DNA of 64,000 nt from Lathyrus oleraceus. Its lineage: Eukaryota; Streptophyta; Magnoliopsida; Fabales; Fabaceae. The notes under the pieces are model-generated. The model saw only the letters and a list, made by a program, of their open reading frames with translations. It did not search any database and was not told the origin of the DNA. The DNA lies in assembly GCF_024323335.1 (NCBI RefSeq), contig NC_066583.1, positions 18,460,665 to 18,524,664 of the forward strand, in the 5' to 3' direction. The translations under genes and the position numbers were made by a program. Every line of letters starts with the position of its first letter. The stretch's first letter is position 1. Below are positions 26,640 to 48,730 of the stretch, piece by piece.

Positions 26640-27910
26640 AGGCCATTTGCTGTCATTTTGAAGCCTCATTGTGCAGCCAAGACAACAGAAGAAGGCCATT
26701 ACTAAGTTGCTTGAATTGTGGAAAGAAGGTACATTGTCACCATGCTACCCCATACATCCCACAACCATGCTTTGTACTGTCCAACAGCAGACCTAGCAGC
26801 ATTGTGCAGCATTTTTTCTGTCATCTTTGGGATACACTACTGGCTGCACAATACCACAGTTCCAAGACATTGCCTTGCCACCAAAAGCAACACTCAACAG
26901 CAGTTTTTGAGGATGGATTTTCTGTCATTAAAGGACAGCCACAACAGCCAACAGCAGGTTTGGTAAAGGATTTTTCTGTCATTGTGAGGACTGGTAGCAG
27001 CAGCAATAGATTGCACACAATTCTCTCTCAAAATTGCCCATGCTGTTGAAAACAAGAGCAACTTCTAACAGCATCCAACTTGCCATGCTTGGTACTGCAC
27101 ATAGCAGTCTTTCTCATCATTTTCCTGTCAAAAACCAATCCTACTGGCAGCCATCAAAGATAACATAGCAGTTCCTTTGTGCACCATTTTCTGTCAATTA
27201 CACAGCATTACTAGCTGCAACCAACACACCATACATCTTGCATATTCCAAATTTTCTGTCAAAAACTCCAAAGTCACCAAGCCTGGCCATGATTATGTGC
27301 ACTGTCCAAACACCATTTTGAAACCATTAGCTGGCAGCAACACAACCAAACTTCTCATTCTTGGCCATTCAAAATTTTCTGTCCAAACACCCAATGAACT
27401 AAGCTTGGCATGACCACACTAGGCAACATCCAAAAGCAGAGTTCACTCCTCTTTCTTTTCTGTCATGGCAGCCACAAACCATTTGGCCTGAGCAGTAGCA
27501 CAACACATAGAACAAACCAACTTCACATTTTTTTCAAGCTTCATTTGGTGTGCATTTCAAAAGCTGTCCAAAGTTCAAAAGGCCAAGGTTTTGCCTTACC
27601 ACAAAAGCAACCTAACCAACTGAAAAACCTTTGCTTTTCATTCTCTCAAAAGATCACTTTTGGCCATTTTGCACTTTTTGTCCAAAAACACCAAGTAACC
27701 TAACCTGGCCTTGCTGGTGTCAAGAATCAAACACATTTTCTGTCATTGAAAATACTGATAGCAGCAGACCAACATCATTCTTTCTCCAAGAACATTCACC
27801 TTGCTCTTGGCATTTTCCCATTTTTCTGTCCAATTTCCAAAGCAACCTAACCTGGCCTGGCTTGTAACAAGGATCAAACCTCATTTTCCTGTCATTGTGA
27901 ACCTTACTAG
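26640..27910 (+). repeat. Degenerate interspersed repeat zone in solo LTR S
   Basis: TTTTCTGTCA or TTCCTGTCA appears about a dozen times (e.g. 26928, 26971, 27188, 27252, 27373, 27455, 27736, 27825, 27889) among words such as CTTGGCA and AACCAAACT. Spacing is irregular. I found no counterpart in B's LTRs. No credible protein. Confidence 0.55.
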
Positions 27911-28552
27911 CTGCAAGACACAGACCAAAATTCACTTATGCTCAAAAGACCACATCTTGGCATTTTCACCAAATCAAGCAAAACCAGTTCAGTGGCCAAC
28001 TTCATTTCCAACTTGATTCAAGTTCAAGTAGGGTGTCAAACAGCTTGCCTTGGACTCTTTGAAGCTATTTGGATACCTGTCAAGCATTGAAAGCATCTCC
28101 AGCATCACATTCAACATTGCCCTGTCCAGGTTAGCAATTTGCCTTCGAAATGCTTGATAGAATGATTTTCATGTCTTAATGTGTGAATGAGAAATGCTAT
28201 ATTCAACCCCCTGAACATGATTGAATGCCTATTTTCATCCAATTTTGCTTGTGTGTGATTTTGAATTTTGCTGCTAGGGGGTTAGGGTTTCTGTGTTCAT
28301 CATGATGTATCTCTATGCACAGTGCACCATTTTGAATTTCATGGCCATGGTTGTGTTAAGCACATGAAATAGATGAATTTTGGTTTTTGTTTCATTTGAT
28401 TTCGTGCACTGTAGAGGAAGATACATGTTGTTGATGTTTGAAAAAATATGTTTGAGTTTGGGAAGAAGACGGAGCCAGGGCGCGCGAATTTTAAGTTTAA
28501 AAGTGTTGCATGCCTTATTTTGATTGGAAGCGAAATTGAGTCACCAATTGAC

Positions 28553-28620
28553 ACATAGCCCAGTGGTGGGCGCGCTGGTTTGAATTATCAGGGGGAGGGG
28601 TTCGAATCCTACCTCCCCCA
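28553..28620 (+). other. tRNA-like / SINE-like block in solo LTR S
   Basis: Contains an A-box-like TAGCCCAGTGGTGGG (28556-28570) and a near-consensus B box GGTTCGAATCC (28599-28609), about 30 bp apart. A full cloverleaf does not fold convincingly, so it is more likely a tRNA-derived SINE fragment than a tRNA gene. Confidence 0.4.
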
Positions 28621-30136
28621 TTTGTGTTTCTTGCCTTTTTAAAAAATGCATTTTTTTTATAAACTTCCATTTTGATTTTCATTTTTGATTTTTATTTTAC
28701 TTAACATGAAATAAATATGTGAACATGAAAAAATGACAAAAAATATGAATGTTTGACTTTGTGGACTTTTTAGGCCATTTTGTGAATTTATCCCGATTTT
28801 ATGAGTTCTACCGATTAAATGTCATCTTGTGCGTTTCATGTGGTTATTTTGATCTTTCAGACCTAGGATTTTTGTGTGAAATCAATTTAGGGTAGGAACA
28901 TGTCCCCTTAGACACTTAGGGTAATTTTTCACACAATGCTCGATTTAATTTTGACAAAGTCCCGATTAAATGTTTTTGACCTCTTAAACTTGTCCAAATG
29001 GGATGAAGTTTGACATGCTTACCATGCTATGTGTTAGGTTTGGCCTGGATTTATTTGGTGATTTTTGGAAAATGTTTAGATTGCTTTTGAGCAAGTCTTG
29101 CTGTTGACTTCTATGAGTTTCTGTTTGCCATACTTTGACCTAATTTGTTCATGAAATGATGATAGTGATTGATATGGATGTGAGCCCAATTGGTTTTGTT
29201 TCCTAATTGTTTGAACATGATTTTGGATACTTACCCCTTGCTGTTTGGACTTTCTCATTCACTTTTGACCCTAGGCTTGCCCTAGTGGTCCTGTTACTCA
29301 CCTTTGAGCTTGTGTTTTCAGGTTGACCATCAAATGGCCATTGAGACCAATTCTTTTGACTGAGCTTGCTTAAAAATCATTGTCTAACTTGTTTGTTTTG
29401 TAGGTGGCTTGGCTCACATGCCTTAAGCTTTGTACCTTGCACATTCACTAGCTTGTGTTGACTGGTTGATGTCTGTTTCATTTTGATTTAACTCTGACTT
29501 GTATACTAACTGTGCTTGACTGATTTCAGGTACTTTAGTTGCTTAGTTCCTTGTGAACTTTTTGCTTTGCTTTGCTTGTATAAGCAATTTGCATTGAGGT
29601 ATGTCTCTTTTACTTCATGTAGTCTGGAAGACCTGGCCTGTTACTTGGCCAGGCAACTGTTTGAAGTCCTCCTTAAGAGGCAATGTTTGTGGATGTTTAA
29701 TTTTGTCCTTGCATAGAGTCAAAGTCCTCCTAAGTGAAGAGGCAATTGGTGGAAGGTAGGGATATGCAATCTATCCCCCACTATTCAGTGTGTCATCTGC
29801 TTTGCTCACACCACTGTGTTGATGCATTACAGATAAAAACCCAAGATCTTGTACGATTGTACAGTTGAGTCAGTTTCAAATGTGTAGAAGGGTTCCCACT
29901 TTCTGAACCCACACATTCTTGTCTTGAGCTCTCCCAGGCCAGGGATAAGAGCTGTGAAGTCTTATCTTCACTCACCTTTCATCTGCTTCACCTTAGCCCC
30001 TCAATGGCAAGGTTAAGAGCACATTCACCCCAATCCAGAGGTTTGTTTGTTGAGGTTGATATGACCCCTTGACTAAAACCTAACCCTTGTTTGAGCCACT
30101 TGTTTATGTATAGCGTGTGCTATCTGTGCTTGTAGG

Positions 30137-30345
30137 ATTGTTTGACTTGCTTCCTGTGCAAGTTAGGATTGTTTGACTTGCTTCCTGTGCAAGTTAGGAT
30201 TGTTTGACTTGCTTCCTGTGCAAGTTAGGATTGTTTGACTTGCTTCCTGTGCAAGTTAGGATTAGTTTAGACTTGCTTCCTGTGCAAGTTAGGTTTTACT
30301 TGGCTTGCTTCCTGTGCAAGTTAAGTGTGTGTGGCTTGCTTCCTG
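30137..30345 (+). repeat. 31-bp tandem repeat with hairpin units in solo LTR S
   Basis: GATTGTTTGACTTGCTTCC repeats at 31-bp steps four times, then degenerates. Each unit holds ACTTGC-TTCCTGT-GCAAGT, a 6-bp stem. The same hairpin occurs once, with a longer stem, in A's LTRs. Confidence 0.85.
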
Positions 30346-30503
30346 TGTGAGCCATGCTTAGGATAGGTTGGCCCTTGTGCCATTTAGCTAGAAACCTTAA
30401 CTTAGGGATGATTTGCATGATAACATCTAGGCTCGAGTCGTAGTCTCCCTAGTTGTGTCTCCCTCTGTTATCTGGTTAGGCTAATCCTTTATCCCTCCGT
30501 AGG

Positions 30504-30960
30504 GGAACTACATCGCCTTGATCTTCATACCAGATGAAGTATGTAGGCAGGAGATTGAGCTGATCTCTCCGGGCGCCTTTTCTTTTCTTTTGTGTGTGTG
30601 CTTGACAGTTATAGGCTCGAGTCCCCGACTCCCTATTAACTTGTTGTGTTGTTGTGTGTTTGGAAGCTGATGTAAGACCATCGAGTGGCATTCGGGTTCC
30701 AGTGTGTGTTTGTTGGTTCGGATGCTGATGTAAGTCCAGTGATTGGCATTCGGGCTCCATGTTTGCCTGTGTTCGCTTTGCTTGTGTGTGTGTCAGCCGA
30801 GCTACGAATGCTCTGATTCTTCTCTCGTCCGAGGAGATACGTATGCATAGGATGCGATATCCTAGCGAGCATGTGTCGTTTCCCCAGTCCGAACTACTTC
30901 GACTCTGATGTCTATGCCTGATAGACTAAGTAGGCCCAGGATGCGATATCCTGCCGAGTT
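30504..30960 (+). other. Three candidate pseudoknot RNA units in solo LTR S
   Basis: Units at 30504-30575, 30797-30872 and 30889-30960, now on the plus strand. They match three of A's four units. Differences keep pairing through wobbles: P1 GACTC/GAGTT, CGCCT/GGGCG, and P2 CTTCTC/GAGGAG. The conserved CCGTAG-AGTA-CTACGG hairpin is at 31060-31075. Confidence 0.68.
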
Positions 30961-31265
30961 AGTGTCAGTTTCAGTCAGTTTCTTTTGTCTCTTTCAGCCA
31001 GTGTGTGTGAGTTTGAGCAGTGTTTAGCAACCAATATTCCTTCCTTTTGTGCGTGGATCCCGTAGAGTACTACGGATGCGTAGGGGTGCTAATACCTTCC
31101 CTTCGCATAACCGACTCCCGAACCCATTCTCTTTGGTCGCGAGACCATGTTCTTTCCCAGGTTTACTCTGAGCGTTTCCTTTCCCTCTTTTGGGATAAAT
31201 AACGCACGGTGGCGGCTCTGTTGTTCTTGTTTTCCCGCCGGTTTTTCGCGTGATGCGACACCAGG

Positions 31266-33063
31266 GCTTCATGAACAACATGGCAATGGAACAAAGACAT
31301 TCATGTAACATTAAACAGCCACAAACAAACATGTTTCATGTGAATTTTCTGGGCAAATCCTAGGGTTTCACTACTGTAAGCTTCATCTTCAACACTTAAC
31401 ATGCAGAATCAAATCACCCAGAAATCATGGATATGCATACCAATCGAACCAATGAAGCAAGCACAGTCATAATCTAGCCATGGTTTTCATTAAATCATCA
31501 TCATCAAAGCAAATCGACTAAAAACAAGTTTGAGCATACAAATGAAAATCCAGATTTCTCATGCATGACACAACCATTTCAAGCAATCCATAGTTCATTA
31601 GAATCAGCAAAGAGTAAACTATCATAAGCATAGCATGGATTAGAGAAAGAAGGTGGTCGAAACCTTACTTGATTTTGAAGAAAGGAGTGGAGCAGTGGTT
31701 ATCTTGGTGATGCAGCTCGAAACAGATGAAGCTCTTGGTTTGAAATGATGGCTGGAGGGTGGCTTGAAGCTCAGCAACTCTTGGAAACACCAAAATCGAA
31801 AATCACCATTGTTGGATTCATGGAGAAACAGAACTTGAAATGCTATTCCAATTGGTATTTTATGCTTAGAAACAACTCTCAATGGTGGTTAGATGATGGA
31901 ACAATGAAGGATTGTTCGAGTTGTTTGGAGGTTTTGAGCAGAAATTGCAAAATGTCAAAATCGAAATTGAGAGAGAATGAGAGTTTTCTGTGTTTAGATG
32001 GCTGCTAGGGTTTACCATTTGACAGAAAATGAGTCTTATATGGTCTGTTTAACATTGGATAAGGATGTGCTAATCAAGTTTTGCTTAATTGAAACAAATT
32101 GCTAATTTGCCAATTTTGAACAAAAATGCATATGGGAGTATGTTCTGCCCGAGTTTGGGCTTTGCACAAGTCAGAAATGAGGTCCTAAAACAATTCCAAA
32201 TGGCCAATGTGATAGAAAATGCTTAATTCAAAAAGTCAAAAATGCACCTCACTTGAAATTCAAACATGCTAGGTTCAAAAATGCCATTTTGATTGGCAAT
32301 GTTTTGGCTCATGAAATTTATATTTTTGGAAAGAGGAGATGAAATGTGGTTTGTAGGAAAAAACCCCACCAAAATTGGCCAAATGGTTTGAGAGATATGG
32401 CCTTTTGAAGTTCAAGATTTTGTGAAAATGATTTGATCATATCTTGACAACCATGCATGGGAATTGAGAGTTCTTGGACTTTTTGGAAATGGGAGAATAA
32501 GATCTTCAACTTTCATGTTGGGCAAAAATTCATTTGAAGCTTGTATCATGATGCAAGTTGAGGATCAAGAAGTTTCCATTTTTGGCAGTTAAAATTACAG
32601 GTCCAGTTTCTATTTTTGGAAATTTTCTGTTTGGCTTCAAATTCTTCAATGATGTTGATTGCCATGATATATGAGGCCTATTGGGACATGAATAAGCCCT
32701 CTCAAACCAAATCCATCCATCAAAACCACAAAATCAACCACAATTGACCAACTTTGACTTTCTAGGGTTTCTGACTGACTGTGCATGAACTGATGACTTC
32801 TGAACATCCAACCCTTGACTTAAACATTTCAAATGAACCTCCAAGTCATGTGAACATATTGGACCAACCCTAGGGCCTTGGCTCCTTGAGAAACACCCTT
32901 GCTTGCTTGGTTGACTGATCTCCTGATCAGTTTGACCTAATTCCTTGACTTGCTTGCTCTTGAGGCAAATGGGACAATGCAATGCTATGCAGTGGACCAT
33001 GTTATGCTATGACCTAATATGAAAATGTATGTACAATGATAGGTGCAAATTTGAGGTGCTACA
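31266..33063 (-). repeat. Left (3') LTR of B, second piece
   Basis: Continues the LTR after solo LTR S and matches 44349-46145. Ends GAGGTGCTACA. AT-rich, no gene: short ORFs are in LTR sequence shared by all copies. Confidence 0.9.
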
Positions 33064-33080
33064 GCTGCCCCTATTCAATC
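33064..33080 (-). promoter_or_regulatory. Polypurine tract of element B
   Basis: Same sense word as in A (GATTGAATAGGGGCAGC), adjacent to the LTR start. Confidence 0.85.
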
Positions 33081-33194
33081 AGCTGGGAACCCGAACGGAT
33101 GATAGCAATGGCTGTCAGACTTTCAGGGTAAACAGGGATTGAATACCAAAGAACCGTAGAAATTTGCACCGACTGGATATGATACCAGGAAAAC

Positions 33195-33830
33195 CACGTC
33201 ATTTACCGATGACAAACTGCATGACAACTTCAGGAAAGCAAAACCATTTACCGATGGTTAGAGAACTGGAACCTTGATATTTACCGATATCAACTTCAGC
33301 GAGACCATTTACCGATGGCTGCTGGGAAAACAAACTTCTGAAAAAGTGAAACCATTTACCGATGGTTAAAGCTTTATATTTACCGATATCAACTTCAGCA
33401 AGACCATTTACCGATGGCTGCTGGGAAAACAGACTTCTGAAAAAGTGAAACCATTTACCGATGGTTAAAGCTTTATATTTACCGATATCAACTTCAGCAA
33501 GACCATTTACCGATGGCTGCTGGGAAAACAAACTTCTGAAAAGAGAAACCATTTACCGATGGTTAAAACTTGATATTTACCGATATCAACTTCAGCAAGA
33601 CCATTTACCGATGGCTGCTGGGAAAACAAACTTCTGAAAAGAGAAACCATTTACCGATGGTTAAAACTTGATATTTACCGATATCAACTTCAGCAAGACC
33701 ATTTACCGATGGCTGCTGGGAAACAGATTGATGAAAAACAAAACCATTTACCGATGGTTAAAACTTGATATTTACCGATATCAAGGCCATTTACCGATGG
33801 CTGCTGCAACTGGGAATTCGATATTTACCG
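33195..33830 (-). repeat. 98-bp tandem array of TTACCG hairpins, B's 3' UTR
   Basis: GATGGTT recurs at about 33460, 33558, 33656 and 33753, a 97-99 bp period, about six units. Each unit holds three hairpins with loop TTACCG: ACCAT/ATGGT, GATAT/ATATC and ACCAT/ATGGC. Absent from A at this place. Confidence 0.9.
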
Positions 33831-34215
33831 ATATCGAAGAAAACTGGGCCATTTACCGATGGCGTCTCCGCTTGGGGAGGAACAAAATCTTTGTGGTGAT
33901 ACCAGACAAACCGTTTACCGACGACTTCTGGGGATTTTTGTTGGGGGATTATCAGACATTTACCGATGACTGAAGGAAAGACTCGATGTTTACCGACACC
34001 GAAGCAATGGCGTTTACCGACACCAAAAAAATGACCAGACATTTACCGATGACTGGGTGAGACTCGATGTTTACCGACACCGAAGCAATGGCGTTTACCG
34101 ACACCAAAAAATGACCAGACATTTACCGATGACTGGGTGAGACTCGATGTTTACCGACACCGAAGCAATGGCGTTTACCGACACCAAAAAATGACCAGAC
34201 ATTTACCGATGACTG
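33831..34215 (-). repeat. About 80-bp tandem array of TTACCG hairpins, B's 3' UTR
   Basis: Three near-identical units containing GATGTTTACCGACACC, GGCGTTTACCGACACC and GACATTTACCGATGAC. Preceded by single hairpins GATAT/ATATC and GCCAT/ATGGC near 33824-33862. Confidence 0.88.
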
Positions 34216-34397
34216 GGAAAGAGGAATACTTCTTCTATTTGAAAATCGGAAATTGGCCTGAACGCCACTTCGGTCTGAATACCGGAAAATTGGCCTGAGT
34301 GCCATGAGTACATCGACCTGATCGTCGGAAACTTCTTCGGTCTGAATACCGGAAAAATTGGCCTGAGTGCCAAAGCGTGAATTGGTTTGTGTTCCAA
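34216..34397 (-). other. Short stretch related to C's TTCAGAYCGAAG repeats
   Basis: The minus strand repeats GGCACTCAGGCCAATTTTCC and ATTCAGACCGAAG, as in C's 3' UTR at 21255-21710. This shows A/B and C share an ancestral 3' UTR. Confidence 0.7.
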
Positions 34398-35256
34398 AAC
34401 ACTCAAGATCCTGAAGAGGGCTAGAAAAGCAGTCTTGTTAAAGGATGGACATTCGATTCCACAAGGAATACGAATCTTACTCGACTGGGGAGGACGACTT
34501 CGACCCAAGAGCGCATGAGACATATTATCTATAGCCGTCAGAACGCAGATAATAATCTCGCATGGAAGATTATCCATAACCGGGTTGTAGGTTGTTAAAT
34601 GAATAATCGACCGAAAACATCCTGAAGAGAGCGAAGGCAAACTTGTTAAAGGATGGACATTCGATTCCACAAGGAATACGAATCTTACTCTGCTGGTGAT
34701 AACAATCGAAAGATTGACCAAAGAGTGCATGAGATATATTATCTATAGCCGTCAAAACGTAGATAATAACCTCGCATGGAAGATTATCCATAACCGGGTT
34801 GTAGGTTGTTAAATGAATAATCGACCGACATCATCCTGAAGAGAGCGAAGGCAAACTTGTTAAAGGATGAACATTCGATTCCACAAGGAATACGAATCTT
34901 ACTCTGCTGGAGATAACAATCGAAAGATTGACCAAAGAGTGCATGAGATATATTATCTATAGCCGTCCAAACGTAGATAATACACTCGCATGGAAGATTA
35001 TCCATAACCGGGTTGTAGGTTGTTAAATGAATAATCGACCGACATCATCCTGAAGAGAGCGAAGGCAAACTTGTTAAAGGATGAACATCCGATTCCACAA
35101 GGAATACGAATCTTACTCTGCTGGAGATAACAATCGAAAGATTGACCAAAGAGTGCATGAGATATATTATCTATAGCCGTCCAAACGTAGATAATACACT
35201 CGCATGGAAGATTATCCATAACCGGGTTGCAGGTTGTTAAATGAATAATCGACCGA
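34398..35256 (-). repeat. 214-bp tandem repeat, 4 copies, B's 3' UTR
   Basis: The frame start for MDNLPCE recurs every 214 bp. The unit includes ATTCGATTCC/GGAATACGAAT, CAATC-GAAA-GATTG and AACC-GGGTTGTA-GGTT hairpins. A has one copy (5990-6234). The apparent 73-residue ORF in each unit is a by-product of the repeat. Confidence 0.92.
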
Positions 35257-35489
35257 AAGAAAGGCATCAGGGTACCAGGACTAGGTATGCAAAAGATGAC
35301 CAATCAAGAGAGGATAAAGTTGCTAACTCAGAGCAAGTATCCAAAAGGAAGGGGGAGACCCACTGGGGACAATACTGCTTGATCAAGGCAAGTATCCAGA
35401 GGGGAAAGAATGTCAATATCACGAACCGGATACTGATAACTGCAAAGAGGGGATTACATCTACTGGTTAGTAGGCAGAAAACCACGGAA

Positions 35490-36497
35490 AAGTAACCGGT
35501 CATCATCGGGATGAGCACAAAGGGTTAACTCCAACAAAGGGACGAAAGTGGGATTTTACAACTACCAGCTAGTGGGTAGAAAACCACGGAGATAGGACTT
35601 ACAACTACCGGTTCGTAGGCAGAGGCCAATGGAAAAGTAACCAGTCATCATCGGGATGAGCACAAACGGTCAACTCCAACAAGGGGATGAAAGTGGGATT
35701 TTACAACTACCAGCTAGTGGGTAGAAAACCACAAAGATAGGACTTACAACTACCGGTTTGTAGGTAGAGGCCAATGGAAAAGTAACCAGTCATCATCGGG
35801 ATGAGCACAAAGGGTTAACTCCAACAAGGGGATGAAAGTGGGATTTTACAACTACCAGCCAGTGGGTAGAAAACCACAAAGATAGGACTTACAACTACCG
35901 GTTTGTAGGTAGAGGCCAATGGAAAAGTAACCAGTCATCATCGGGATGAGCACAAACGGTCAACTCCAACAAGGGGATGAAAGTAGGATTTTACAACTAC
36001 CAGCTAGTGGGTAGAAAACCACAAAGATAGGACTTACAACTACCGGTTTGTAGGTAGAGGCCAATGGAAAAGTAACCAGTCATCATCGGGATGAGCACAA
36101 AGGGTTAACTCCAACAAGGGGATGAAAGTGGGATTTTACAACTACCAGCCAGTGGGTAGAAAACCACAAAGATAGGACTTACAACTACCGGTTTGTAGGT
36201 AGAGGCCAATGGAAAAGTAACCAGTCATCATCGGGATGAGCACAAACGGTCAACTCCAACAAGGGGATGAAAGTGGGATTTTACAACTACCAGCTAGTGG
36301 GTAGAAAACCACAAAGATAGGACTTACAACTACCGGTTTGTAGGTAGAGGCCAATGGAAAAGTAACCAGTCATCATCGGGATGAGCACAAAGGGTTAACT
36401 CCAACAAGGGGATGAAAGTGGGATTTTACAACTACCAGCCAGTGGGTAGAAAACCACAAAGATAGGACTTACAACTACCGGTTTGTAGGTAGAGGCC
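35490..36497 (-). repeat. 145-bp tandem array with 290-bp higher-order period, B's 3' UTR
   Basis: AGTAACCAGTCATCATCGGG starts at 35636, 35781, 35926, 36071, 36216 and 36361, exactly 145 bp apart. Alternate copies carry AACGGTCAACTCC with CCAGCTAGTGG, or AAGGGTTAACTCC with CCAGCCAGTGG, giving three 290-bp dimers. Each monomer has two CTACC...GGTAG hairpins. Confidence 0.92.
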
Positions 36498-38085
36498 ACA
36501 AATTCCGCTGAGGATAAGATGAATGAGTGCCGGTTAGTGAGCGACTATTCATTTATGCCCCAGGGAAGCACAAGAAGCAGTCGACAGGAAGCCAATTTAG
36601 GATCGATCCAAAAAGGCAGACTGAAACAAGACTCATCCTAATGAGGAAAGAACTCAATAGGGAGAACCCATCCCGTGTAGGGAGGGAACGGAAGCAACCG
36701 TCATCCACGAGGATGTATCTCAGTGGGGAAATGGCAGGAAAGGATAGACACTTTCTGCTTAAGGGGTAGACTCTACATGGAGAGATCAGACACGCCCACT
36801 TCTGCTAAGGGAAAATCTACTGGAGAGATCTGTATCAACAAATAGCAGGAAACAACCAACAGATACCCGGCGACAGCTGCAACATAAGTATCCAAATGCT
36901 ATGATTATGCATGTATGCATTATGCATGATGAATGTATGATGAATGCTGACAAACAGACATGCTCAACACGCAGGTCCGGGAATCAACCGTCCGGAGAGA
37001 AAACCAAAGCCACCAGAGAGCAAAGAAAATCCACTGGGGACTGGGATATCAGGGAACATTTATCCTGCAGGGGAGGAAGGCCACCGGAGGCTTCCGGAGG
37101 GATCGTCGGTCACAACCGGAGAAAAGAGTTCAACATACAGGCGGATGCGCCACAACAACTTGTGATGAAAATCTGAGATACCGAGAAGCAACCAGATCTC
37201 TGATGAGAAATACAAAAGCATTGATACAGCTCCTTACGCGACCAACTCCACTGGGGGATCTATCTGAGGGAATGCCGGATTACGGGGATGTCGATCCTCC
37301 AAATACTGAATCTTCCAAGAAAAGCACCCATGCTGGGGGGAGATGAAGACTGCTCTGCTGGAGAGGCGAAAGTTGAAGTCTTCAGTAAACACTCTGCTAG
37401 GGGAGCTGCCCCACAATAATGTCCGAAACAACAAACTTGCTGGGGATGCCCCACGATAGGGCTCAAACAGCACTCTACTGGGGATGCCCCATAATAGAGC
37501 TAACAAGGATTTGGAGGAAGAAAGTTGTACTGCCGGGAACGTGAAAATGAACAACTTCAAACAACACTGCATCGGGCAACTTTGCTGAGGAGAAACCAAA
37601 AGAGGTTCGACAGGAGAAAGATAAAGTTATGCTCGAGATACGAACAAATGTCTTACCTGTTGGTAATCATACCACCCTCGGGAGAGCACTTGCGGGTCTC
37701 CTAAGTATCCTTCCATCATTGTGAATGTTCACTTTGTTTAAGAACAATTTTTTTTGAAAAATTTGTTTATTTTGAAAACAATGATACTCTATCACTTAAA
37801 ACATGCAAAACATCTGTTGAGTTAAAACAAATAAGAGTGCAAATAATTGGATAAAAGCTCAAATTGATGTGATGGAATGGTAGTCTGCAAAGGGCGAGAC
37901 TCCATAGATCTGTACAAGTTTGAAATCGGTGATATATATTGGAGAGGGCTACATTGAACATAATGACCTTTCCTCTACCATTCTGAATTTTCGATGTATT
38001 CGGAGCTTCAGTCGACGACGAATCGAGAATCTCTGACGGATGACAGATATAGAGCACAGTCTTGTCAAGATGCAGTTACTTGCCA
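36498..38085 (-). other. Remaining 3' UTR of element B, no gene seen
   Basis: Counterpart of 7596-9244 in A. Includes TGGGGATGCCCCA repeats near 37438-37500 and an AT-rich stretch at 37690-38080. ORFs are incoherent. Confidence 0.6.
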
Positions 38086-38280
38086 AATCCCTAATTTTTG
38101 CCTAGATTGCCCCAGTGTGAGGTGATCAATCTAGCGGGATGCGAATTCTCTTTTTTTTCAATGTCTCTAACTTTTGCCTGGATCGCCCTTTCGGGTTTTC
38201 AATCCACCGAGACTCTCCTTTTTGCCTAAGTCGCCCTTTGGGGTGTTCGACTTAGCGAGCTGTTTTGCTTTTTTTTTTTT
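38086..38280 (-). other. Hairpin array downstream of B's integrase stop
   Basis: Three well-preserved hairpins (plus-strand arms): TAGATTG (38103-38109)/CAATCTA (38127-38133), GGATCG (38180-38185)/CAATCC (38200-38205) and TAAGTCG (38227-38233)/CGACTTA (38248-38254), with CCC..GGG inner pairs. Same design as in C but with other arm sequences. Confidence 0.7.
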
Positions 38281-38282
38281 GT

Positions 38283-38537
38283 TTAGGCTAAGTATTTCTT
38301 GACTGCATCAGGATTCACAAGACGAGTGAACTTCTCCATCCATTGTTGTAAGTGTCGAAACATTGCCTGAAAAGGCTCTCTTGACCACATATGGACATTC
38401 ATAACTTGGAGTCCACTTGCCCCTGGAATCGGGCACGAAAGACAAGACTTTCTTGAGCACAAGGTCCCTCGGAACACACGAGGCTTGACCTTCTTATCGA
38501 ATGCTTTCTTCACTCTCTGCTGATATAACTTGACCAT
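38283..38537 (-). pseudogene. Integrase C-terminal remnant of element B
   Basis: Starts with VKLYQQRVKKAFDKKVKPR, the basic segment before the integrase tail (C has RMKRAFDQKVRPR), and ends VNPDAVKKYLA plus a stop. The middle is frameshifted. Same deletion derivative as in A. Confidence 0.78.
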
Positions 38538-38614
38538 GACACATGGCAGTTGATCTTTTCGTTCTTTCCGTCGAATTCAGCATTAGTCAACTTGGGACTT
38601 TGAGGGTGCTATCT

Positions 38615-38745
38615 TTCTTTTGTTTTTTTTTTCTTTTGATTTTGCTTTTGATTTTGCTTTCTTTTGATTTCTTTTGATTTCTTTTGATTTTGCACCCTCC
38701 TCTTTCTTTTTTTCTTTTTTTTTCTTTTTTTTTCTTTTGATAATG
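38615..38745 (-). repeat. Poly(A/G)-rich tract at the pol deletion junction of B
   Basis: Homologous to 9770-9886 in A, with a slightly different number of TTTTGATTT and CTTTTTTT units. Confidence 0.8.
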
Positions 38746-38935
38746 CCCCAGTTGGCTGTTCTGCTGATTCTCGAGATGCAGCTGAGTGTGATCTTCTTTT
38801 CTCGCTCAAGAAGTCGGGAAATCTCGTCAGGAATCCCTTCGACATCATCTTCTTCCGCTTCGAATACAGGGAATTCAAAATTGGGAGATGACGTCCGATC
38901 ATTATGTTCAATGGGTTTGAGAAACAACCTGCATA
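38746..38935 (-). pseudogene. Pol N-terminal remnant of element B
   Basis: Minus strand with NFEFPVFEAEEDDVEGIP and DEISRLLERE, as in A. It ends at the A-rich tract. Confidence 0.72.
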
Positions 38936-39356
38936 ATGATTTTGAGTATAAAAAGCACTTTGAAAATCAAACAAGACAATCGTTATGCAGATGAAAAGAT
39001 TGCTTTTATTCTTGTTTTTTTTTTTAGGGTTTTTTGGTGATCACCAATTTCATGCAAAAAGCGAAAAGGGAAAACAAATGGAAAAACAAATGTTTAACAT
39101 GAATTTATTTGAATGAAAACATCATTGCACAAAATGTTGCCAACAATGTCATCACTTCTCCTTTTGGCATGGGAGAAGGGTTTTTAAACAAAGTGATTAT
39201 TACAAAGACTTATGAACAACTGTAGGAACGCCCACAGTGACCCAATTGTGATAGATCCCGCCGGGGATGACAATTGTCAATATCTTTTGCATCAGCAGCT
39301 TCTGTTTTCTAAACAACCCTCTGAAGAAAAGTCGGCGCCAGCCCGGGACTTGTTAT
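38936..39356 (-). other. Intron-like spacer of element B
   Basis: Counterpart of 10081-10500 in A. AT-rich with no credible ORF. Confidence 0.5.
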
Positions 39357-39670
39357 CTTCAGGCTTGATTAACACGGGGACCTAAATCCTCCAAGATCAG
39401 AATACCTGACCTCACAAGGTCTTGAACCTTTATCTTCAGCTGGAAACAACTATCCACATCACGACCAGGAGCACCCGAATGATACACACAATGCTGTTCA
39501 GGCCTATACCACCACCGAGGGTTGACAGGTATGGGCGGCGGGTCTCTGGGAGTGATCAAGTTCCGCTCTAACAGAGAGGGATACAGTTCGGCGTAGGACG
39601 TGGGGATTGGATCAAAAATGATCTCCTTCCTCCCATTACTTGTACCGGCTTGATTGTCAATGGGAGGCTG
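39357..39670 (-). pseudogene. Gag C-terminal remnant of element B
   Basis: Keeps PVNPRWWYRPEQHCVYH and GRDVDSCFQLKIKVQDLV. The upstream gag still present in A (N-terminal helix and Ser/Arg-rich region) is deleted: sequence jumps from the AGTSNGRKE-like segment to the leader near 39670. Confidence 0.75.
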
Positions 39671-40613
39671 GTGTTGTCTCTGATCAACTATCCTGTCTCA
39701 GTCAAAACCCAAAGTGAGAGGTCACGTCCCCAAACATGTCTGTAATGCGAGGATGATATGTACATGATATGCGTATGATGCGGATGCTATTTTATCATGA
39801 ATGATCCTGAAAAGGATATGCGTATGCGAGTTAACTTTTTTTCTTTTTTCATGCATTATTATTTTTTGGAAAATAAACATGCTATGATGCAAATGACGGA
39901 ACATGACTGGTCAAGCTGGCATCTGAGGAACCACCTGAAACCCCAAAGTCATCTGAGGAGCTAGCATCTGAACCCAAGTCTGGAGAACTGAGTCACCATC
40001 TGAGCGAGTACCCTCCAATTCAGCCCAGGGATCCGAAATAAACGGAACCCTCTGATCAATACCAGGGTCAAACCCTCGGCGTCCAGAAATATAACTCGTA
40101 GTCACTATCAGTTCCAGGAGTCACCAACTGTACCTGTAAAAATGATCAAACCCTTCCCCACTCACGGGTGTCGTCTAGGCCAGGGTAAGGTCGAGAGAAA
40201 CGCAGCATAAATAACCTTTCGCAGAATATCATCCTGTGCACACCCGATGTATGCACCGATAATATCCCACCAGGGTCTGAACTGCTCGTGATATCAATGT
40301 TCCGCTAAGTGGCGCAATACCACCCGCTTCCCACGAATCACTCTATTCCTAGGTTTCCTAGATTTCACTCATAGCCTGGGTATTGGGCCTTTTACCTCGA
40401 GTAACTCCCACCCCAAACAGAGAAACACAGCCAGATGAACAGATGAATATGAATGAATGCAAACATTAATGCAAATAATAAATGCAAACAGTAAATGCAA
40501 ATATATACAAAGAATGCAATAAAACAGTGCAAAGCAACCAAAGCCCTAACCTAGAGAGCGCTAGGAGAGACTCGCTCAGGGAAGATGGACCAGCACAGGT
40601 CAACTTCTTCCTC
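39671..40613 (-). other. Leader region of element B
   Basis: Matches A's leader. Contains the shared unrecognised small frame (39911-40105). No other feature seen. Confidence 0.45.
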
Positions 40614-40631
40614 TCCCCAGTAGAGTCGCCA
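40614..40631 (-). promoter_or_regulatory. Primer binding site of element B
   Basis: The minus strand reads TGGCGACTCTACTGGGGA, one base different from A's PBS, two bases from the LTR end. Confidence 0.83.
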
Positions 40632-40633
40632 GC

Positions 40634-43600
40634 TGTCGCATTACGCGAAAAACCGGCGGGAAAAGAAAGAAACAACAGAGCCGCCACCGTGCGTTATTTA
40701 TCCTAAAAGAGGGAAAGGAAACGCTCAGAGTAAACCTGGAAAGAACATGGTCTCGCGACCAAAGAGAATGGGTTCGGGAGTCGGTTATGCGAAGGGAAGG
40801 TATTAGCACCCCTACGCATCCGTAGTACTCTACGGGATCCACGCACAAAAGGAAGGAAAAATGGTTGCTAAACACTGCTCAAACACACACACACTGGCTG
40901 AAAGAGACAAAAGAGACTGACTGAAACTGACTCGGCAGGATATCGCATCCTGGGCCTACTTAGTCTATCAGGCATAGACATCAGAGTCGAAGTAGTTCGG
41001 ACTGGGGAGACGCCACATGCTCGCTAGGATGTCGCATCCTATGCATACGTATCTTCTCGGACGAGAGAAGAATCAGAGCATTCGTAGCTCGGCTGACACG
41101 CACACAAACAAACAAAACACGCACAGGAAAACGTGGAGCCCGAATGCCAATCACTGGACTTACATCAGCATCCGAACCAAAACGCACACAGGAAACCAAC
41201 TGCCAATCGCTGGACTTATGTCGGACTCCAACCAGAACACACACAAGGGTGGTTAAGACGCAAAGGGTTGAACAAGAAAAAGAGCACCCGGAGAGATCAG
41301 CTCAATCTCCTGCCTACATACTCCATCTGGTATGAAGATCAGGGCGATGTAGTTCCCCTACGCAGGGAAAAAAGACTAGCCTAACCAGATAACAGAGGGA
41401 GACACAACACTAGGGAGACTACGACTCGAGCCTAGATGTTGTCATGCAAAGTCAACCCTAAGTTAAGGTTTCTAGCTAAATGGCACAAGGGCCAACCTAT
41501 CCTAAGCACGGCTTGCACAGGAAGCAAGCCACACCTAAACCAACTTGCACAGGAAGCAAGGGGGGTCTCGATTGCAACTAGGGCAAGAGAAAGGGGAGGT
41601 CTCAATCGCAACAAGGGCGAGAGAAAAGAATTAGTGTTAGTTGTTAGTCAAACTCGACAAGACATCGCATCTCGTGCCTACGTATCTCATCTGAACATGA
41701 GAATCAGAGTTGCCGTAGTTCGGCTAAACTATTACTGTTGGTTTGTGTTTTTTAAGTGGACAACGTCACTACACAATCTACCTGATGCTCGACCTTTGGA
41801 GACTTACTCATCTGTAGTAGAAGGAGTTAACGTATCCTTAAGAGGGGATGATGTTTGTTTGTGTTTTTAAAAAGGCTCAAGCAAGAAAGGAAGTCCTATA
41901 CGAAGGAACCGTGCTACCTTAATTGACATGCAAACGAGACTACGCGGAGTCTAACAACCTAGGGGATACAAACACACCACACAAGCATACACAAGCACAT
42001 CCAGCATAAAATAAACACACCAACAAGGGGGCTCAAGCATGGGTTAGGTTTTAGTCGAGGGGTCATATCAACCTCAACAAACAAACCTCTGGAACGGGGT
42101 GAGTGGTGCTCTTAACCTTGCCATTGAGGGGCTAAGGTGAAGCAGATGAAAGGTGAGTGAAGATGAGACCTCACAGCTTCTATCCCTGGCCTGGGAGAGC
42201 TTAAGACAAGAATGTGTGGGTTCAGAAGGTGGGAACCCTTCTACACATTTGATACTGACTCAACTGTGCAATTGCACAAGATCTTGGGTTTTTATCTGAA
42301 ATGCATCAACACAGTAGTGTGAGCAAAACAGAAGACACACTGAATAGCAGGGGATAGGTTGCTTATCCCTTGGTTCTGCCAATTGCCTCTTCACTTAGGA
42401 GGTCTTTGACTCTGTACAAGGACAAATTAAACATACACAAACATTGCCTCTTAAGGAGGACTTCAGACAGTTGCCTGGCCGAGTAACAGGCCAGGTCTTC
42501 CAGACTACATGAAGAAAAAGGAAATATACCTCAAGCAAGTTGCTAAATAGCAAAGCAAAGCAAGTTCAAAGAACTTAAGCAACTAAGGGTACCTGAAATA
42601 GTCAAACCAATCAGTATACAGTTCAACAGTCAAATCAAAAGGAATGGAAACCACAGACAAATCAGGTAATCAGATGTGCAAGGCACAAAACTCAAACACA
42701 TGAGCCAAGCCACCTACAAAACAAAGGTTAGCTCAATGACATTCAAGCAAGCTCAAACAAAAGAAATTAATCTCATTGGTCACTGGGTGTTCAACCTGAA
42801 AACACAAGCTCAAAAGTGAGTAACTGGACCACTAGGGCAAGCCTAGGGTCAAAAGAGAATGAAAAAGGCAAAACAGCAAAGGGCAAGCAACCCAAATCAT
42901 GTTCAAACATTTAAGAAGCAAGCACAATTGGGTTCATGTTCATATCATGCATCATCATCAATTCACAAGCAAAAGAAGTCAAAGCATGGCAAGGGAGGGC
43001 TCAAAGAAGTCAACAGAATGACTTGCATCAAAAGTCAACTCAAACATTTTCAAAAATCACCAGATAAATCATGATCAATCCTAACACCTAGCATGGTAAG
43101 CATGTCAAATTTCATTGCATTTGGACAAGTGGAAGGCAGTCTATGAAAATCATAAAGTCAAAGCAAATTTGAACATGCTCAATGAAGTCAACAGCAAGAC
43201 TTAGCTCAAAACCAAACATAAGCATTTCCAAAAATCATCAAATAATTCATGCTCAATCACAATCCATAACATGACATGCATATAAAATTTCAGCTCAATT
43301 GGATCATGGGAAGGTGGTCAATAAAAATCAGAAAGTCAAAACAATTTCAAGCATGCTCAAAGAAGTCAAACAAACATGTATCAACTTCAAAAAATCATAA
43401 CTCAATGACAACAGATGAGAAATGAATGGGATCAACACCATGGCAAAGCTTAAGATGTCTAGTATGCACATGCAAAATTTCATGATCATCCAACAAAGTA
43501 TGAGAATTTCCCAAATGAAATGGCAAGATGTATCACACAAAGTCAACAATTGACTAGGCAGGGAAGAAAAATCTCAAACAATTAAGAAATGGCATAATTA

Positions 43601-46145
43601 ATTCCAGGAAAATTCACAAGTCAACTAGACATATAAGAGAAGGATCATGCAAAATTTCACATCAATTGAAGGTTAGGAAGCATGTCAACAAAAATCATGA
43701 AATTACATATCATTGGTGTGACACAAATTGTCACACCCTACTTCAAAAATTCATATCTTAATAACCAGATAAGATAAAATCCAGAACTCTACATCAAAAC
43801 AAACATGAATGAGTGTAGATTAACCACAAAAAATTTCAGATCAAATGGATGCATCATCACAATTTCACAATGGTTTTGGCAAAAGGTATGAAATATGCAT
43901 ACATGTCAAGAACCCTAATGCCATTAAAAATCCAGCCATCCAAAAAATCATTAAAAATCATGATAAAAAGGTAGACATTCTCATGAACATGATGCAAAAA
44001 ATTTCATGATTTTTGGATTTGAAATGCACGAGTTATGAATTTTGTAAGTTGAGTAATCAATTGAAACAAAATGAGCAAAAGAACATGGTTTACTAAGTCA
44101 ACAAGGTTGACCGAGTGGCATTTTGGTAATAACACCCTCATTAATCAAAACGGTGCGTACAGGGCATGGGAAATGAAATGTTCTCATTGGTTGTCACCAA
44201 TGGAACAGTAATTCAAGCAGAAAAGTCAAACAACAACAGCCAATCCATTCACGAGTTCATGTTCTGGGCAGGTGATTAGGGTTTTGGAACAGCAACAGCG
44301 TATGTTCATCTTGTTCATCATATCATCATAAAATGAATTCAACCAGGGCTTCATGAACAACATGGCAATGGAACAAAGACATTCATGTAACATTAAACAG
44401 CCACAAACAAACATGTTTCATGTGAATTTTCTGGGCAAATCCTAGGGTTTCACTACTGTAAGCTTCATCTTCAACACTTAACATGCAGAATCAAATCACC
44501 CAGAAATCATGGATATGCATACCAATCGAACCAATGAAGCAAGCACAGTCATAATCTAGCCATGGTTTTCATTAAATCATCATCATCAAAGCAAATCGAC
44601 TAAAAACAAGTTTGAGCATACAAATGAAAATCCAGATTTCTCATGCATGACACAACCATTTCAAGCAATCCATAGTTCATTAGAATCAGCAAAGAGTAAA
44701 CTATCATAAGCATAGCATGGATTAGAGAAAGAAGGTGGTCGAAACCTTACTTGATTTTGAAGAAAGGAGTGGAGCAGTGGTTATCTTGGTGATGCAGCTC
44801 GAAACAGATGAAGCTCTTGGTTTGAAATGATGGCTGGAGGGTGGCTTGAAGCTCAGCAACTCTTGGAAACACCAAAATCGAAAATCACCATTGTTGGATT
44901 CATGGAGAAACAGAACTTGAAATGCTATTCCAGTTGGTATTTTATGCTTAGAAACAACTCTCAATGGTGGTTAGATGATGGAACAATGAAGGATTGTTCG
45001 AGTTGTTTGGAGGTTTTGAGCAGAAATTGCAAAATGTCAAAATCGAAATTGAGAGAGAATGAGAGTTTTCTGTGTTTAGATGGCTGCTAGGGTTTACCAT
45101 TTGACAGAAAATGAGTCTTATATGGTCTGTTTAACATTGGATAAGGATGTGCTAATCAAGTTTTGCTTAATTGAAACAAATTGCTAATTTGCCAATTTTG
45201 AACAAAAATGCATATGGGAGTATGTTCTGCCCGAGTTTGGGCTTTGCACAAGTCAGAAATGAGGTCCTAAAACAATTCCAAATGGCCAATGTGATAGAAA
45301 ATGCTTAATTCAAAAAGTCAAAAATGCACCTCACTTGAAATTCAAACATGCTAGGTTCAAAAATGCCATTTTGATTGGCAATGTTTTGGCTCATGAAATT
45401 TATATTTTTGGAAAGAGGAGATGAAATGTGGTTTTTAGGAAAAACCCCCACCAAAATTGGCCAAATGGTTTGAGAGATATGGCCTTTTGAAGTTCAAGAT
45501 TTTGTGAAAATGATTTGATCATATCTTGACAACCATGCATGGGAATTGAGAGTTCTTGGACTTTTTGGAAATGGGAGAATAGGATCTTCAACTTTTATGT
45601 TGTGCAAAAATTCATTTGAAGCTTGTATCATGATGCAAGTTGAGGATCAAGAAGTTTCCATTTTTGGCAGTTAAAATTACAGGTCCAGTTTCTATTTTTG
45701 GAAATTTTTTGTTTGGCTTCAAATTCTTCAATGATGTTGATTGCCATGATATATGAGGCCTATTGGGACATGAATAAGCCCTCTCAAACCAAATCCATCC
45801 ATCAAAACCACAAAATCAACCACAATTGACCAACTTTGACTTTCTAGGGTTTCTGACTGACTGTGCATGAACTGATGACTTCTGAACATCCAACCCTTGA
45901 CTTAAACATTTCAAATGAACCTCCAAGTCATGTGAACATATTGGACCAACCCTAGGGCCTTGGCTCCTTGAGAAACACCCTTGCTTGCTTGGTTGACTGA
46001 TCTCCTGATCAGTTTGACCTAATTCCTTGACTTGCTTGCTCTTGAGGCAAATGGGACAATGCAATGCTATGCAGTGGACCATGTTATGCTATGACCTAAT
46101 ATGAAAATGTATGTACAATGATAGGTGCAAATTTGAGGTGCTACA
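40634..46145 (-). repeat. Right (5') LTR of element B, 5.5 kb, uninterrupted
   Basis: Pairs with the two pieces of the left LTR. Pseudoknot units lie at 40929-41000, 41017-41092, 41285-41356 and 41651-41723. In the third, P1 reads CACCC where the left LTR has CGCCC, which on the sense strand still pairs through a wobble. The CCGTAG/CTACGG hairpin is at 40820-40835. Confidence 0.92.
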
Positions 46146-46396: not shown

Positions 46397-46683
46397 TGTA
46401 ATACCCCAAAATTTACCCCCCTCATTCATGCATTCATTTTTAGGTCATATAACATTTCATATAGAATTTCATCATGTCAATCGGAATTAGATCCAAGAAG
46501 CTTGAATATCATCCAAGACACTTTGTGGGTCCTATCTGGGTGATCAGTCAACACAAGGGAATGGCTTGAGATACTTCCAACATGTTCAAATGGGGTCTAT
46601 TCATCAGTCAAAACGTTAATCTTGAAGGAGCAAAAATTTGTTCATGAACTGTCATGCTCGCTAGGCGAAGCCCACACATTTCG

Positions 46684-46686
46684 AAA

Positions 46687-46729
<43 letters not shown>

Positions 46730-46731
46730 AT
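46684..46731 (+). repeat. (AAAT)n microsatellite
   Basis: About a dozen AAAT units in C's LTR, ending in a TACATAAAAT variant. Confidence 0.95.
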
Positions 46732-48268
46732 ACATAAAATATAACAGAAAAATCTTGGACTTGGGCCTCTCTCTTTTGAGCCCACAAAGTCCCAAAAATC
46801 AGGTTATAAATTCTAGACTTCCATCTCCCAAAAAACCCTGGGGAAAAAGATAGTGAGAGAAGAGCTAACGGAGTTCAGAGCAACCTCCAGAGACTGAAAG
46901 GAACTCATCTGCAAAGAACCTACTCTACCTCATATAAACCCTCAGATTGCTTTGCAAACCCAACCGGGCAATTCAATTTCATTCGATCTCTCCAATCAGG
47001 TTTGCCCTATTTCCATTACTCTATGCTTTCAATTTGAATGCTCTGAATGTATGAGGCATTATCGTTAGGTTTTGCATGTGGGTACATGTTTTAGTATGTA
47101 TGTCATGTCTTGATGTATGGATCCTTGCCCCCTGACTTTGAATTTTGATACCCTTTTGATGCATGTGTTTGACAAGAGGTTTAGGCCTCCTACACTTGGT
47201 TGCTTTTTGTGAGCTCTTTTTGTGAATTTTAATGGCATGATTCATGTGGTTACATTTTGATTTGGGGCAACTCTTGATTGCACCCCATCTTGTTATTCTA
47301 ACCTGTTTGTTGAGTTTTTGTGAGGGCTCACATGACTCCTGAAAGGATAGCTTGCTTGGCATTCCACTTTATTTGTGGGATACCACCTGGAGGTTTATTC
47401 CGATTACCTGTATGGACTTGCTTTCTTTGATAGTGCCAGCTTGAGAGATCTCTGGGTTTCTTATTTCTTTAGTTGCCGTTACTTCGGATTTTTATCCGTG
47501 TGGTAGATCTCTTGATCCCTTTATCTTTCCCGCGTTTTACCGCTTTCTTAGCTAGAAGGCCTCAATAGGAGGCAATGTTTTCTTTTGTTTGTTTACTTTT
47601 GTGCCCAAAGACCTCCGTAAAGAGGCAATTGACGGATAAAAGGGATTAGTAGTCAATCCCCCGTTATTCAGTGTGTCGTTCTTTATGCTCACACTACATG
47701 TCGATGCTTCAGAACAAAAGCCCAAGATCTTTTGTCCGATCAGTCAGTGGAGAGGGTTCCACCTTTCTGAATCCCCACTTTTTGTCATGAGCTCACCCCG
47801 TCCAGGGTTAAGAGCTATGAGGTCTTATCCTCATTACCCTTTCGATCTGCTCACCCTGACGTTCAATGTTAGTGGTTAAGAGCCCGTTTGATTACCCTTC
47901 CATGGCTTGTTTGTCGAGGTTGATATGACCCCTCTTGACTAAAGCCCTACCCATGTATGTTTGAGCCCCCTTTGTGGCATTTTACTTTATGCATGTTTAT
48001 TTTGTATGGTGTGATCGTCTCCCCATAAGATTGCTAGGCTTCGTATAGTCTCTCGTTTGCATGTCAATTAAGGTAGCACTGTTCCTTCGTTTAGGACCTC
48101 CTTTTTGCATGAGCATTCCTAAACACAAACAAACTCATTGATTTTTCTTCTCCTAAGAACACATTTACTCCTTCTACTGCAGGCGAGTAAGTCTCCAAAG
48201 GTCGAGCATCCGGTAGATTGCGTAGTAACGTCGTTCGTCCAAAACACAACCTTTAACTCGTAGATTAG

Positions 48269-48438
48269 CCGAACTACGGCTTGCTCTGATTCTCATTCCA
48301 GATGAGATACGTATGCATAAGACGCAACGTCTTAGCGAGCACACTCCTCTTTAACCCCTAGGTAGCCGAGATACGAAGACTCTGATTCTCATATTCAGAT
48401 GAGATACGTATGCAGTGGATGCGACATCCGTGCGAGTC
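48269..48438 (+). other. Two candidate pseudoknot RNA units in C's LTR
   Basis: Units 48269-48341 and 48366-48438. P1 TGCTC/GAGCA and GACTC/GAGTC; P2 TCTCAT/ATGAGA in both; P3 AAGACG-CAA-CGTCTT and GGATG-CGA-CATCC; crossing pair TACG/CGTA in both. C's LTR is otherwise diverged from A and B, so this is independent support for the fold. Confidence 0.72.
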
Positions 48439-48730
48439 ATTTTCTTTTGACCACTCTTTTAGTAAATAGTACATTAGATAAACCCACACCCTTTAGACAA
48501 GAACAACAAAAGTGGATCCCGTAGAGTACTACGGATGCGTAGGGGTGCTAATACCTTCCTTCGCATAATCGGCTCCCAAACCCAAGATTTGGTTGCGAGA
48601 CCTTGTCTTTTCCTTTCTTTTTTCCAGGTTTACTTCGAGCGTTTCCTTTCCCTCCTTCAGGATAAATAACGCAAGGTGGCGACTCTTCTGTCATTCCTTT
48701 TTCGTCGGTTGTTTTTCGCAGGTTGCGATA

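Follow-up and report, generated by a model that had tools for sequence, protein, structure and literature searches.

A conserved, probably pseudoknotted RNA unit repeated in the Ogre-type LTRs of a Lathyrus oleraceus locus

The window analysed here, a 64-kb stretch of Lathyrus oleraceus DNA (64,000 nucleotides, positions 18,460,665 to 18,524,664 of contig NC_066583.1), consists of plant DNA rich in LTR retrotransposons in which a unit of ~72 nt recurs many times. The question raised by this locus is whether the unit is kept as an RNA structure and, if so, what such a structure might do for the elements carrying it. A preliminary description, made from the letters alone, had presented the unit as a covarying, pseudoknotted three-way junction repeated in every Ogre-type LTR, with seventeen other copies besides the two at 48269-48438, and had named a covariance model, an Rfam search and R-scape as ways of checking this.

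The search with nhmmer from six seeds at an inclusion E of 0.01 produced 21 copies of the unit in the window, followed by three further matches below inclusion that were 19-21 nt long (E 1.6-7.3). A covariance model built from the units recovered the same 21 copies and nothing else in the window up to E = 10. The repetition described earlier was thus confirmed by both searches, with the count corrected to nineteen other copies. All six Ogre-type LTRs found in the window hold units, as had been claimed (four per LTR in elements E1 and E2, three in a solo LTR and two in the diverged V LTR), none is located elsewhere in the window, and the orientation of the units follows the sense strand of the element in all six. 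The copies fall into six classes, U1-U4, V1 and V2 (Table 1). Because order, spacing and the letters of P1 are alike in V1 and U2, and likewise in V2 and U1, these were treated as putative orthologous pairs of two LTR lineages.

Table 1. Coordinates of the repeat units, their arms and the host elements in the window
Feature	Position	Strand	Basis
Element E1	839..15939; LTRs 839-4411 and 12368-15939, 99.8% identical; TSD GGTGC	-	self-alignment
Element E2	21720..46145; 5' LTR 40634-46145, 3' LTR 21720-33064 (interrupted by the solo LTR), pair 99.5% identical; TSD GTTAT	-	self-alignment
Solo LTR, same family, inside E2 3' LTR	25435..31260; TSD CCAGG	+	self-alignment, TSD
V LTR, diverged, with V1 and V2	46397..48730 (end approximate)	+	after polypurine tract ~46388-46395
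Tat/Ogre-type pol ORF (RT, RNase H, second RNase H, integrase)	16991..19753	+	Pfam domains
E1 putative primer binding site TGGCGACTCTGCTGGGGA, two bases past LTR end	12348..12365	-	sequence
E1 decayed partial pol similarity	9368-10660	-	tblastn, best E 8.6e-24
E2 decayed partial pol similarity	38286-39595	-	tblastn, best E 1.6e-21
Unit V1, V LTR	48267..48341	+	covariance model E=4.5e-21
V1 arms	a 48274-48278; P1 48282-48286/48337-48341; P2 48291-48296/48302-48307; a' 48310-48314; P3 48318-48324/48328-48334	+	unit alignment
Unit V2, V LTR	48364..48438	+	covariance model E=1.6e-20
V2 arms	a 48371-48375; P1 48378-48382/48434-48438; P2 48387-48392/48399-48404; a' 48407-48411; P3 48415-48421/48425-48431	+	unit alignment
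Unit U1, E1 3' LTR	1133..1206	-	covariance model
Unit U2, E1 3' LTR	1222..1298	-	covariance model
Unit U3, E1 3' LTR	1491..1563	-	covariance model
Unit U4, E1 3' LTR	1895..1969	-	covariance model
Unit U1, E1 5' LTR	12662..12735	-	covariance model
Unit U2, E1 5' LTR	12751..12827	-	covariance model
Unit U3, E1 5' LTR	13020..13092	-	covariance model
Unit U4, E1 5' LTR	13424..13498	-	covariance model
Unit U1, E2 3' LTR	22015..22088	-	covariance model
Unit U2, E2 3' LTR	22104..22180	-	covariance model
Unit U3, E2 3' LTR	22371..22443	-	covariance model
Unit U4, E2 3' LTR	22737..22811	-	covariance model
Unit U3, solo LTR	30503..30575	+	covariance model
Unit U2, solo LTR	30795..30871	+	covariance model
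Unit U1, solo LTR	30887..30960	+	covariance model
Unit U1, E2 5' LTR	40929..41002	-	covariance model
Unit U2, E2 5' LTR	41018..41094	-	covariance model
Unit U3, E2 5' LTR	41285..41357	-	covariance model
Unit U4, E2 5' LTR	41651..41725	-	covariance model

The elements seem to form one nested stack, in which E1 and E2 would have inserted into a plus-strand Tat/Ogre element; this reading combines the TSDs and the self-alignment with pol similarity that tblastn found on the plus strand on both sides of E1 (1-813 and 16266-19750). The V LTR was read as the 3' LTR of this same plus-strand Tat/Ogre element. In the pol ORF, RVT_3 is present at residues 349-466 between RT_RNaseH and integrase, and a second RNase H at this place is a mark of Ogre and Retand elements (PMC6317226, excerpt), which assigns the ORF to the Ogre/Tat lineage without splitting Ogre from Retand. 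Among the best 120 of its 2025 relatives the first named comes from Theobroma cacao, the next named among those listed include many legumes (Vicia, Medicago, Trifolium, Cicer, Lathyrus), and no relative was found in IMG/VR. A primer binding site complementary to tRNA-Arg is a further feature of the Ogre/Tat lineage, and the site of E1 may be of this tRNA-Arg type. The sequence TGGCGACTCT(G/A)CTGGGGA adjoins the 5' LTR end and a polypurine tract precedes the 3' LTR in both E1 and E2, whose sense strand is minus according to both the primer binding site and the strand of the pol remnants. These remnants, sought by tblastn with 120 pol proteins, amount to ~1.3 kb per element. E1 has eight internal ORFs of at least 100 aa on the minus strand; the seven that were scanned contain no Pfam domain above cutoff, and two of them gave sub-cutoff matches with E ~0.08. 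As judged from these letters, E1 and E2 are defective elements with decayed pol, yet their LTR pairs are near-identical, which points to recent movement helped from elsewhere.

Several further features were observed in the same window. The interiors of E1 and E2 contain tandem arrays with periods of ~67, 145 and 214 bp (4723-5527, 6292-7600, 34502-35229 and 35309-36623). A separate Ty3/gypsy element at 51829-60475, with LTRs 99.85% identical and an open gag-pol ORF of 1,497 codons (53952-58445), is probably a recent insertion, while a minus-strand stretch with Tat/Ogre pol similarity (48646-49227), whose start coincides with, or slightly precedes, the V LTR end, is perhaps a further broken element. 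An ORF of 378 aa at 62844-63980 (-) had no Pfam match at E 0.001.

Read in the 5' to 3' direction, the unit starts with strand a, which is followed by 0-3 nt, P1 (5 bp), UGAU, the P2 hairpin (6-7 bp), 1-2 nt, strand a', 3-4 nt, the P3 hairpin (6-7 bp), 2 nt and the closing strand P1'. Three of the linkers are of constant length in all six classes: 4 nt between P1 and P2, 10 nt (including a') between P2 and P3, and 2 nt between P3 and P1'. The P3 loop is CGA in four of the six classes, and the invariant letters include a C before P1', with which the P3-P1' joint ends, a C in the P2 loop and a G after a'. P1, P2 and P3 would make a three-way junction, and pairing of the P2-P3 joint with the strand just 5' of P1 would turn it into an H-type pseudoknot extended by two hairpins; the link of 0-3 nt from a to P1 would fit the classical H-type pseudoknot.

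Every arm listed in the preliminary description was found in the unit alignment. The pairing of a with a' claimed there was present in full in four classes, with the letters CTACG/CGTAG, CTACTT/AAGTAG or CTACAT/ATGTAG in three of them and compensated as ATACG/CGTAT in V2; V1, one of the two units at 48269-48438, and U2 retain a short form of four pairs only, with a C-U mismatch at the fifth. With four pairs in two of the six classes, a/a' is the weakest of the helices, and it is probable that this predicted pseudoknot is formed together with P1 rather than in exchange for it, as in a switch. Columns 51 (G/U) and 74 (pyrimidine/G) of the unit alignment A1 also co-change between the six classes, which is not significant for the pair taken alone and could represent a tertiary contact in the junction.

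The covariation analysis was made with 15 distinct rows and 23 pairs, giving 345 pair cells, 97.4% of which hold standard pairs. Two-sided changes occurred at 14 of the 23 pairs, a number reached in 6 of 500 shuffles; neither the 77 cells changed on both sides nor the covariation score of 0.625 was reached in any of the 500, and displacing the partners by 1-3 columns lowered the score to 0.037-0.115. Further pair types occurred in an unexceptional number (reached in 261 of 500 shuffles). The preliminary description had listed P1, P2 and a/a' as covarying, all of which do so, and had missed P3, where four of the seven pairs show two-sided changes. RNAalifold, unaided, returned P1 and P2 together with six pairs of P3. 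A further scan, blind to the model, covered 2346 five-pair column helices and left out those gapped in two or more classes at any one position; with 93% pairing and at least three two-sided changes across the six classes required, six registers passed, all within a/a', P1, P2 and P3. When the 3' arms were permuted among the six classes, 432 of the 268,738,560,000 joint arrangements (1.6e-9, a figure that ignores relatedness) did as well as the observed one, and of the 720 arrangements of each helix taken singly this held for 18 in a/a', 4 in P1, 6 in P2 and 1 in P3. The comparison of V1 with U2 gave 19 unchanged pairs, four two-sided changes and none broken; that of V2 with U1 gave 14 unchanged, eight two-sided, one one-sided and none broken.

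Relatedness was taken into account by a tree-preserving null of 2000 alignments, which kept both the tree made with FastTree and the substitutions on each branch. With the 15 rows the observed totals of the whole structure were reached in none of the 2000, and helix by helix both criteria together were likewise never reached, single ones being reached up to 61 times (two-sided cells in a/a'). With the six class representatives both criteria were reached in none of the 2000 for P1, P2 and P3 and in three for a/a' (81 and 47 singly). The R-scape-like tree-aware test, underpowered with six classes, found no pair with E below 0.05 (best 0.225), so that this check did not yield significance for single pairs; pairs of the structure took ranks 1, 2, 4, 7 and 8 of the 2485 compared.

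The pair cells include 25 G-U and no A-C among the 345 (seven and none among 138 in the six classes), and since G-U would be A-C on the antisense strand, it is the sense RNA that is kept. The folding energy of single sequences was unremarkable in four of the six classes (z from -0.27 to -1.27), lower values being obtained for U2 (-2.78) and V1 (-3.73); the nested P1-P2-P3 model exceeded the MFE by 2-10 kcal/mol in every class, and pair probability was low in places (0.04 for P1 in U2, 0.24 for P2 in U3). Taken with the shuffles, the permutation, the tree-preserving null, the blind scan and the G-U strand bias, the compensation in P1, P2, P3 and a/a' supports the earlier claim of selection on RNA structure, and the units almost certainly contain a conserved sense-strand RNA structure kept by compensatory change.

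Every part of an LTR occurs at least once in the full-length genomic RNA, the U3 region at the 3' end, R at both ends and U5 at the 5' end; the units are therefore expected in genomic RNA irrespective of where it starts and stops. A TATA box ahead of the units, which would place them in the leader, was also sought: TATA-like matches numbered 3, 1, 1 and 1 in four LTRs, with no clear excess over shuffled letters (means of 2.03, 3.58, 3.87 and 1.51 in the same LTRs). Between the LTRs of E2 and V, alignment is good in the units and in a block of ~200 nt at the end, and poor in the stretch separating them. This block before the LTR end (48513-48700 on the plus and 870-1046 on the minus strand), starting from GTGGATCCCGTAGAGTACTACGGATGCGTAGGGGTGCTAATACC, opens with a hairpin CCGTAG/CTACGG, the arms of which repeat the letters of a/a'. 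A sequence resembling a primer binding site, GGTGGCGACTC, is located inside the V LTR ~50 nt before its end (48675-48685, +), which gives the impression of a former primer site taken up by the LTR.

All four classes U1-U4 are present in both LTRs of E1 and of E2 despite the decayed pol, and the retention of units by recently moved elements with pol remnants suggests a cis-acting role of the RNA. We lean towards such a role in the handling of genomic RNA. Its narrower form, packaging or export, is put forward tentatively, at somewhat less than even confidence, which was lowered slightly because the TATA-like matches did not exceed chance and because E1 and E2 have pol remnants. Each fold would then serve as the place where an RNA-binding protein docks, either Gag, in packaging, or a host export factor, as for the pseudoknotted MusD transport element; two to four copies would permit multivalent binding, marking the full-length RNA as genome, and E1 and E2 would have kept the sites despite decayed pol since they require recognition in trans. 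The usual extension of retroviral packaging signals past the LTR counts against packaging units confined to it, and the computed evidence fits packaging, export, stability, translation and 3'-end roles alike.

Two known systems resemble this arrangement in their described features. Like the units, the MusD MTE and the IAP RTE are cis-acting in the transcript of an LTR retrotransposon, and the MTE, which contains a pseudoknot, acts in export (PMC12786077, excerpt); both, however, belong to mouse elements. BARE1 and BARE2 are members of another retrotransposon superfamily than Ogre. In barley, BARE1 packages BARE2, which is unable to make Gag and has kept its signals for dimerisation and packaging, so that a Gag-less element retains cis signals for packaging in trans (PMC3735527, excerpt).

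The same barley system makes protection from exonuclease a fair rival to docking, because the packaging-bound RNA of BARE is uncapped (PMC3735527, excerpt). A fold stopping a 5'-3' exoribonuclease (XRN4 or XRN2/3) could shield uncapped genomic RNA or leave stable LTR fragments; the 5' strand pairing into the junction core and the tandem copies are features shared with class 1 xrRNAs, and the xrRNAs of plant viruses may be positioned upstream of coding regions (PMC7527734, excerpt). The preliminary description had speculated on such a likeness, and this part of it stands insofar as two nucleotides of the xrRNA 5' end pair with two in a three-way junction (PMC5760640, excerpt). The detail fails: P2 and P3 are separated by one conserved C in class 1a and by zero nt in class 1b, compared to 10 nt in all six unit classes, the crossing helix has 2-3 pairs compared to 4-6, and the L3 pseudoknot Pk2 (PMC7527734, excerpt) has no conserved counterpart, since a 3-4 nt Watson-Crick match between the P3 loop and the following 40 nt was found in three of six classes at differing places. 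Moreover, residue numbering in the same source implies that Pk1' would be situated between P3 and P1', and not, as the earlier comparison had it, between P2 and P3. Class 1 membership was ruled out by the 10-nt joint and the missing L3 pseudoknot, Rfam gave no match, and a roadblock function was considered distinctly unlikely. The strand order is nearer to that of HDV-like ribozymes, with a/a' as P1, P1 as P2, P2 as P3 and P3 as P4, the nested-pseudoknot order being common to both (PMC4908430, excerpt), along with the position of a' 1-2 nt past the inner hairpin and the short joint before P1. The invariant C before P1', the C in the P2 loop and the G after a' would suit such a ribozyme, and pairing of an invariant C with an invariant G could stand for P1.1, which by 1-2 pairs connects L3 with the joint that follows P1'. 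HDV-like ribozymes have a J4/2 long enough for the catalytic C and the purines following it, and a P3 of 3 bp. In contrast, the corresponding joint of the units is 2 nt and their inner hairpin 6-7 bp, a has no G at its start, P1.1 is not found at fixed columns (a strict two-pair match occurs in four of six classes, in differing registers), and no Rfam ribozyme matched up to E 5 (48150-48720 and 837-2600). Catalytic features of the family are missing; several self-cleaving copies would, in addition, cut the genomic RNA apart, and self-cleavage of this kind was judged very improbable. The hammerhead, with its core consensus CUGANGA, GAAA and NUH, was rejected as well, since the units have CUGAU only, no GAAA joint, and NC in the P3-P1 joint in place of an NUH site. 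Hammerhead retrozymes nevertheless demonstrate that plant LTRs can carry ribozymes, and resemble the case described here in having a structured RNA in the LTRs of non-autonomous Ty3/gypsy-related plant elements, with a three-way junction and CUGA before a stem (PMC4918200, excerpt).

A function in RNA processing or translation, that is in splicing, 3'-end formation, or ribosome shunting or internal entry in a long leader, would be compatible with ATAAATAA, which in all four LTRs examined starts at a distance of 65-68 nt from the LTR end but is found elsewhere as well in two of them. Pyrimidine-rich stretches follow several units (30-nt share 0.60-0.87, compared to a mean of 0.59 in the E1 LTR downstream of 3015); the excess is modest, a share of 0.70 being reached by 21% of such 30-nt segments and after two of the six units, and a conserved pyrimidine tract was discarded as weak. 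Splice-like sequences near 48171-48193 also favor this possibility, which we regard as unlikely, if less so than the roadblock. They consist of CTTCTACTRCAG, two bases and GAGTAAGTC, resemble back-to-back 3' and 5' splice sites just upstream of the first unit, and are common to V (48171-48193, +) and E2 (~41801-41823, -). At the DNA level, the units might be tandem TACGTA (ACGT-core) sites bound by a plant factor, as enhancers of LTRs acting as promoters, and TACGTA is indeed present in four of the six classes. However, U1 and U3 have no ACGT core and their pairing is kept by compensation, which together with the strand-specific wobble argues against a DNA-binding site; the four helices, furthermore, covary jointly. 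The enhancer reading was rejected on the strand-specific wobble, its probability being as low as that of the HDV-like ribozyme. A tRNA-derived unit was dismissed with ARAGORN, which found no tRNA in the window.

The searches for relatives were mostly negative. Rfam 15 had no match in the whole window at gathering thresholds, and up to E 5 the regions 48150-48720 and 837-2600 gave four sub-threshold unrelated models, none of them over a unit, so that the Rfam check, too, returned nothing for any unit. Pattern scans of IMG/VR and GTDB contigs produced at least 201 loci, and their matches were judged to be chance: nhmmer over 179 of them gave a best E of 0.012, and the covariance model over 28 (all 22 from one pattern scan and six of the 179) a best E of 0.026, the latter on 30 nt that did not coincide with the pattern match. 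The LTR-end pattern had no match in IMG/VR, nor had 48150-48740 in PLSDB. A protein search with the antisense ORF across U4 found nine proteins with 68-100% identity over 55-100% of 49 residues, eight being ENA records and one a Lathyrus oleraceus protein; they added no usable covariation and suggest that at least one unit class, U4-like, exists in pea. Literature searches with the motif letters found no retrotransposon paper among the matches listed, and none of the titles and abstracts retrieved for xrRNA, Ogre RNA structure, LTR covariation and gypsy pseudoknot or ribozyme reports this element.

Few covarying RNA structures are known from plants: a survey published in 2025 and covering 130 plant genomes obtained 16 candidates, whose covariation was generally modest, and neither retrotransposon nor pseudoknot occurs as a word in its main text (PMC12218528). 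The unit described here has compensation in four helices, and Ogre elements account for about 57% of the genome-size differences among the Fabeae species studied (PMC4659654, excerpt). It is conceivable, and in our estimate quite improbable, that the units represent a new RNA structural family across eudicot Tat/Ogre elements, whose tandem pseudoknots would halt 5'-3' exoribonucleases, by a ring unlike that of the known xrRNAs, or catalyse cleavage; if this were true, one RNA fold would be shaping a large share of some legume genomes. Present in all six such LTRs of the window, the fold would offer a direct handle on how Ogre RNA is marked, exported, protected or packaged.
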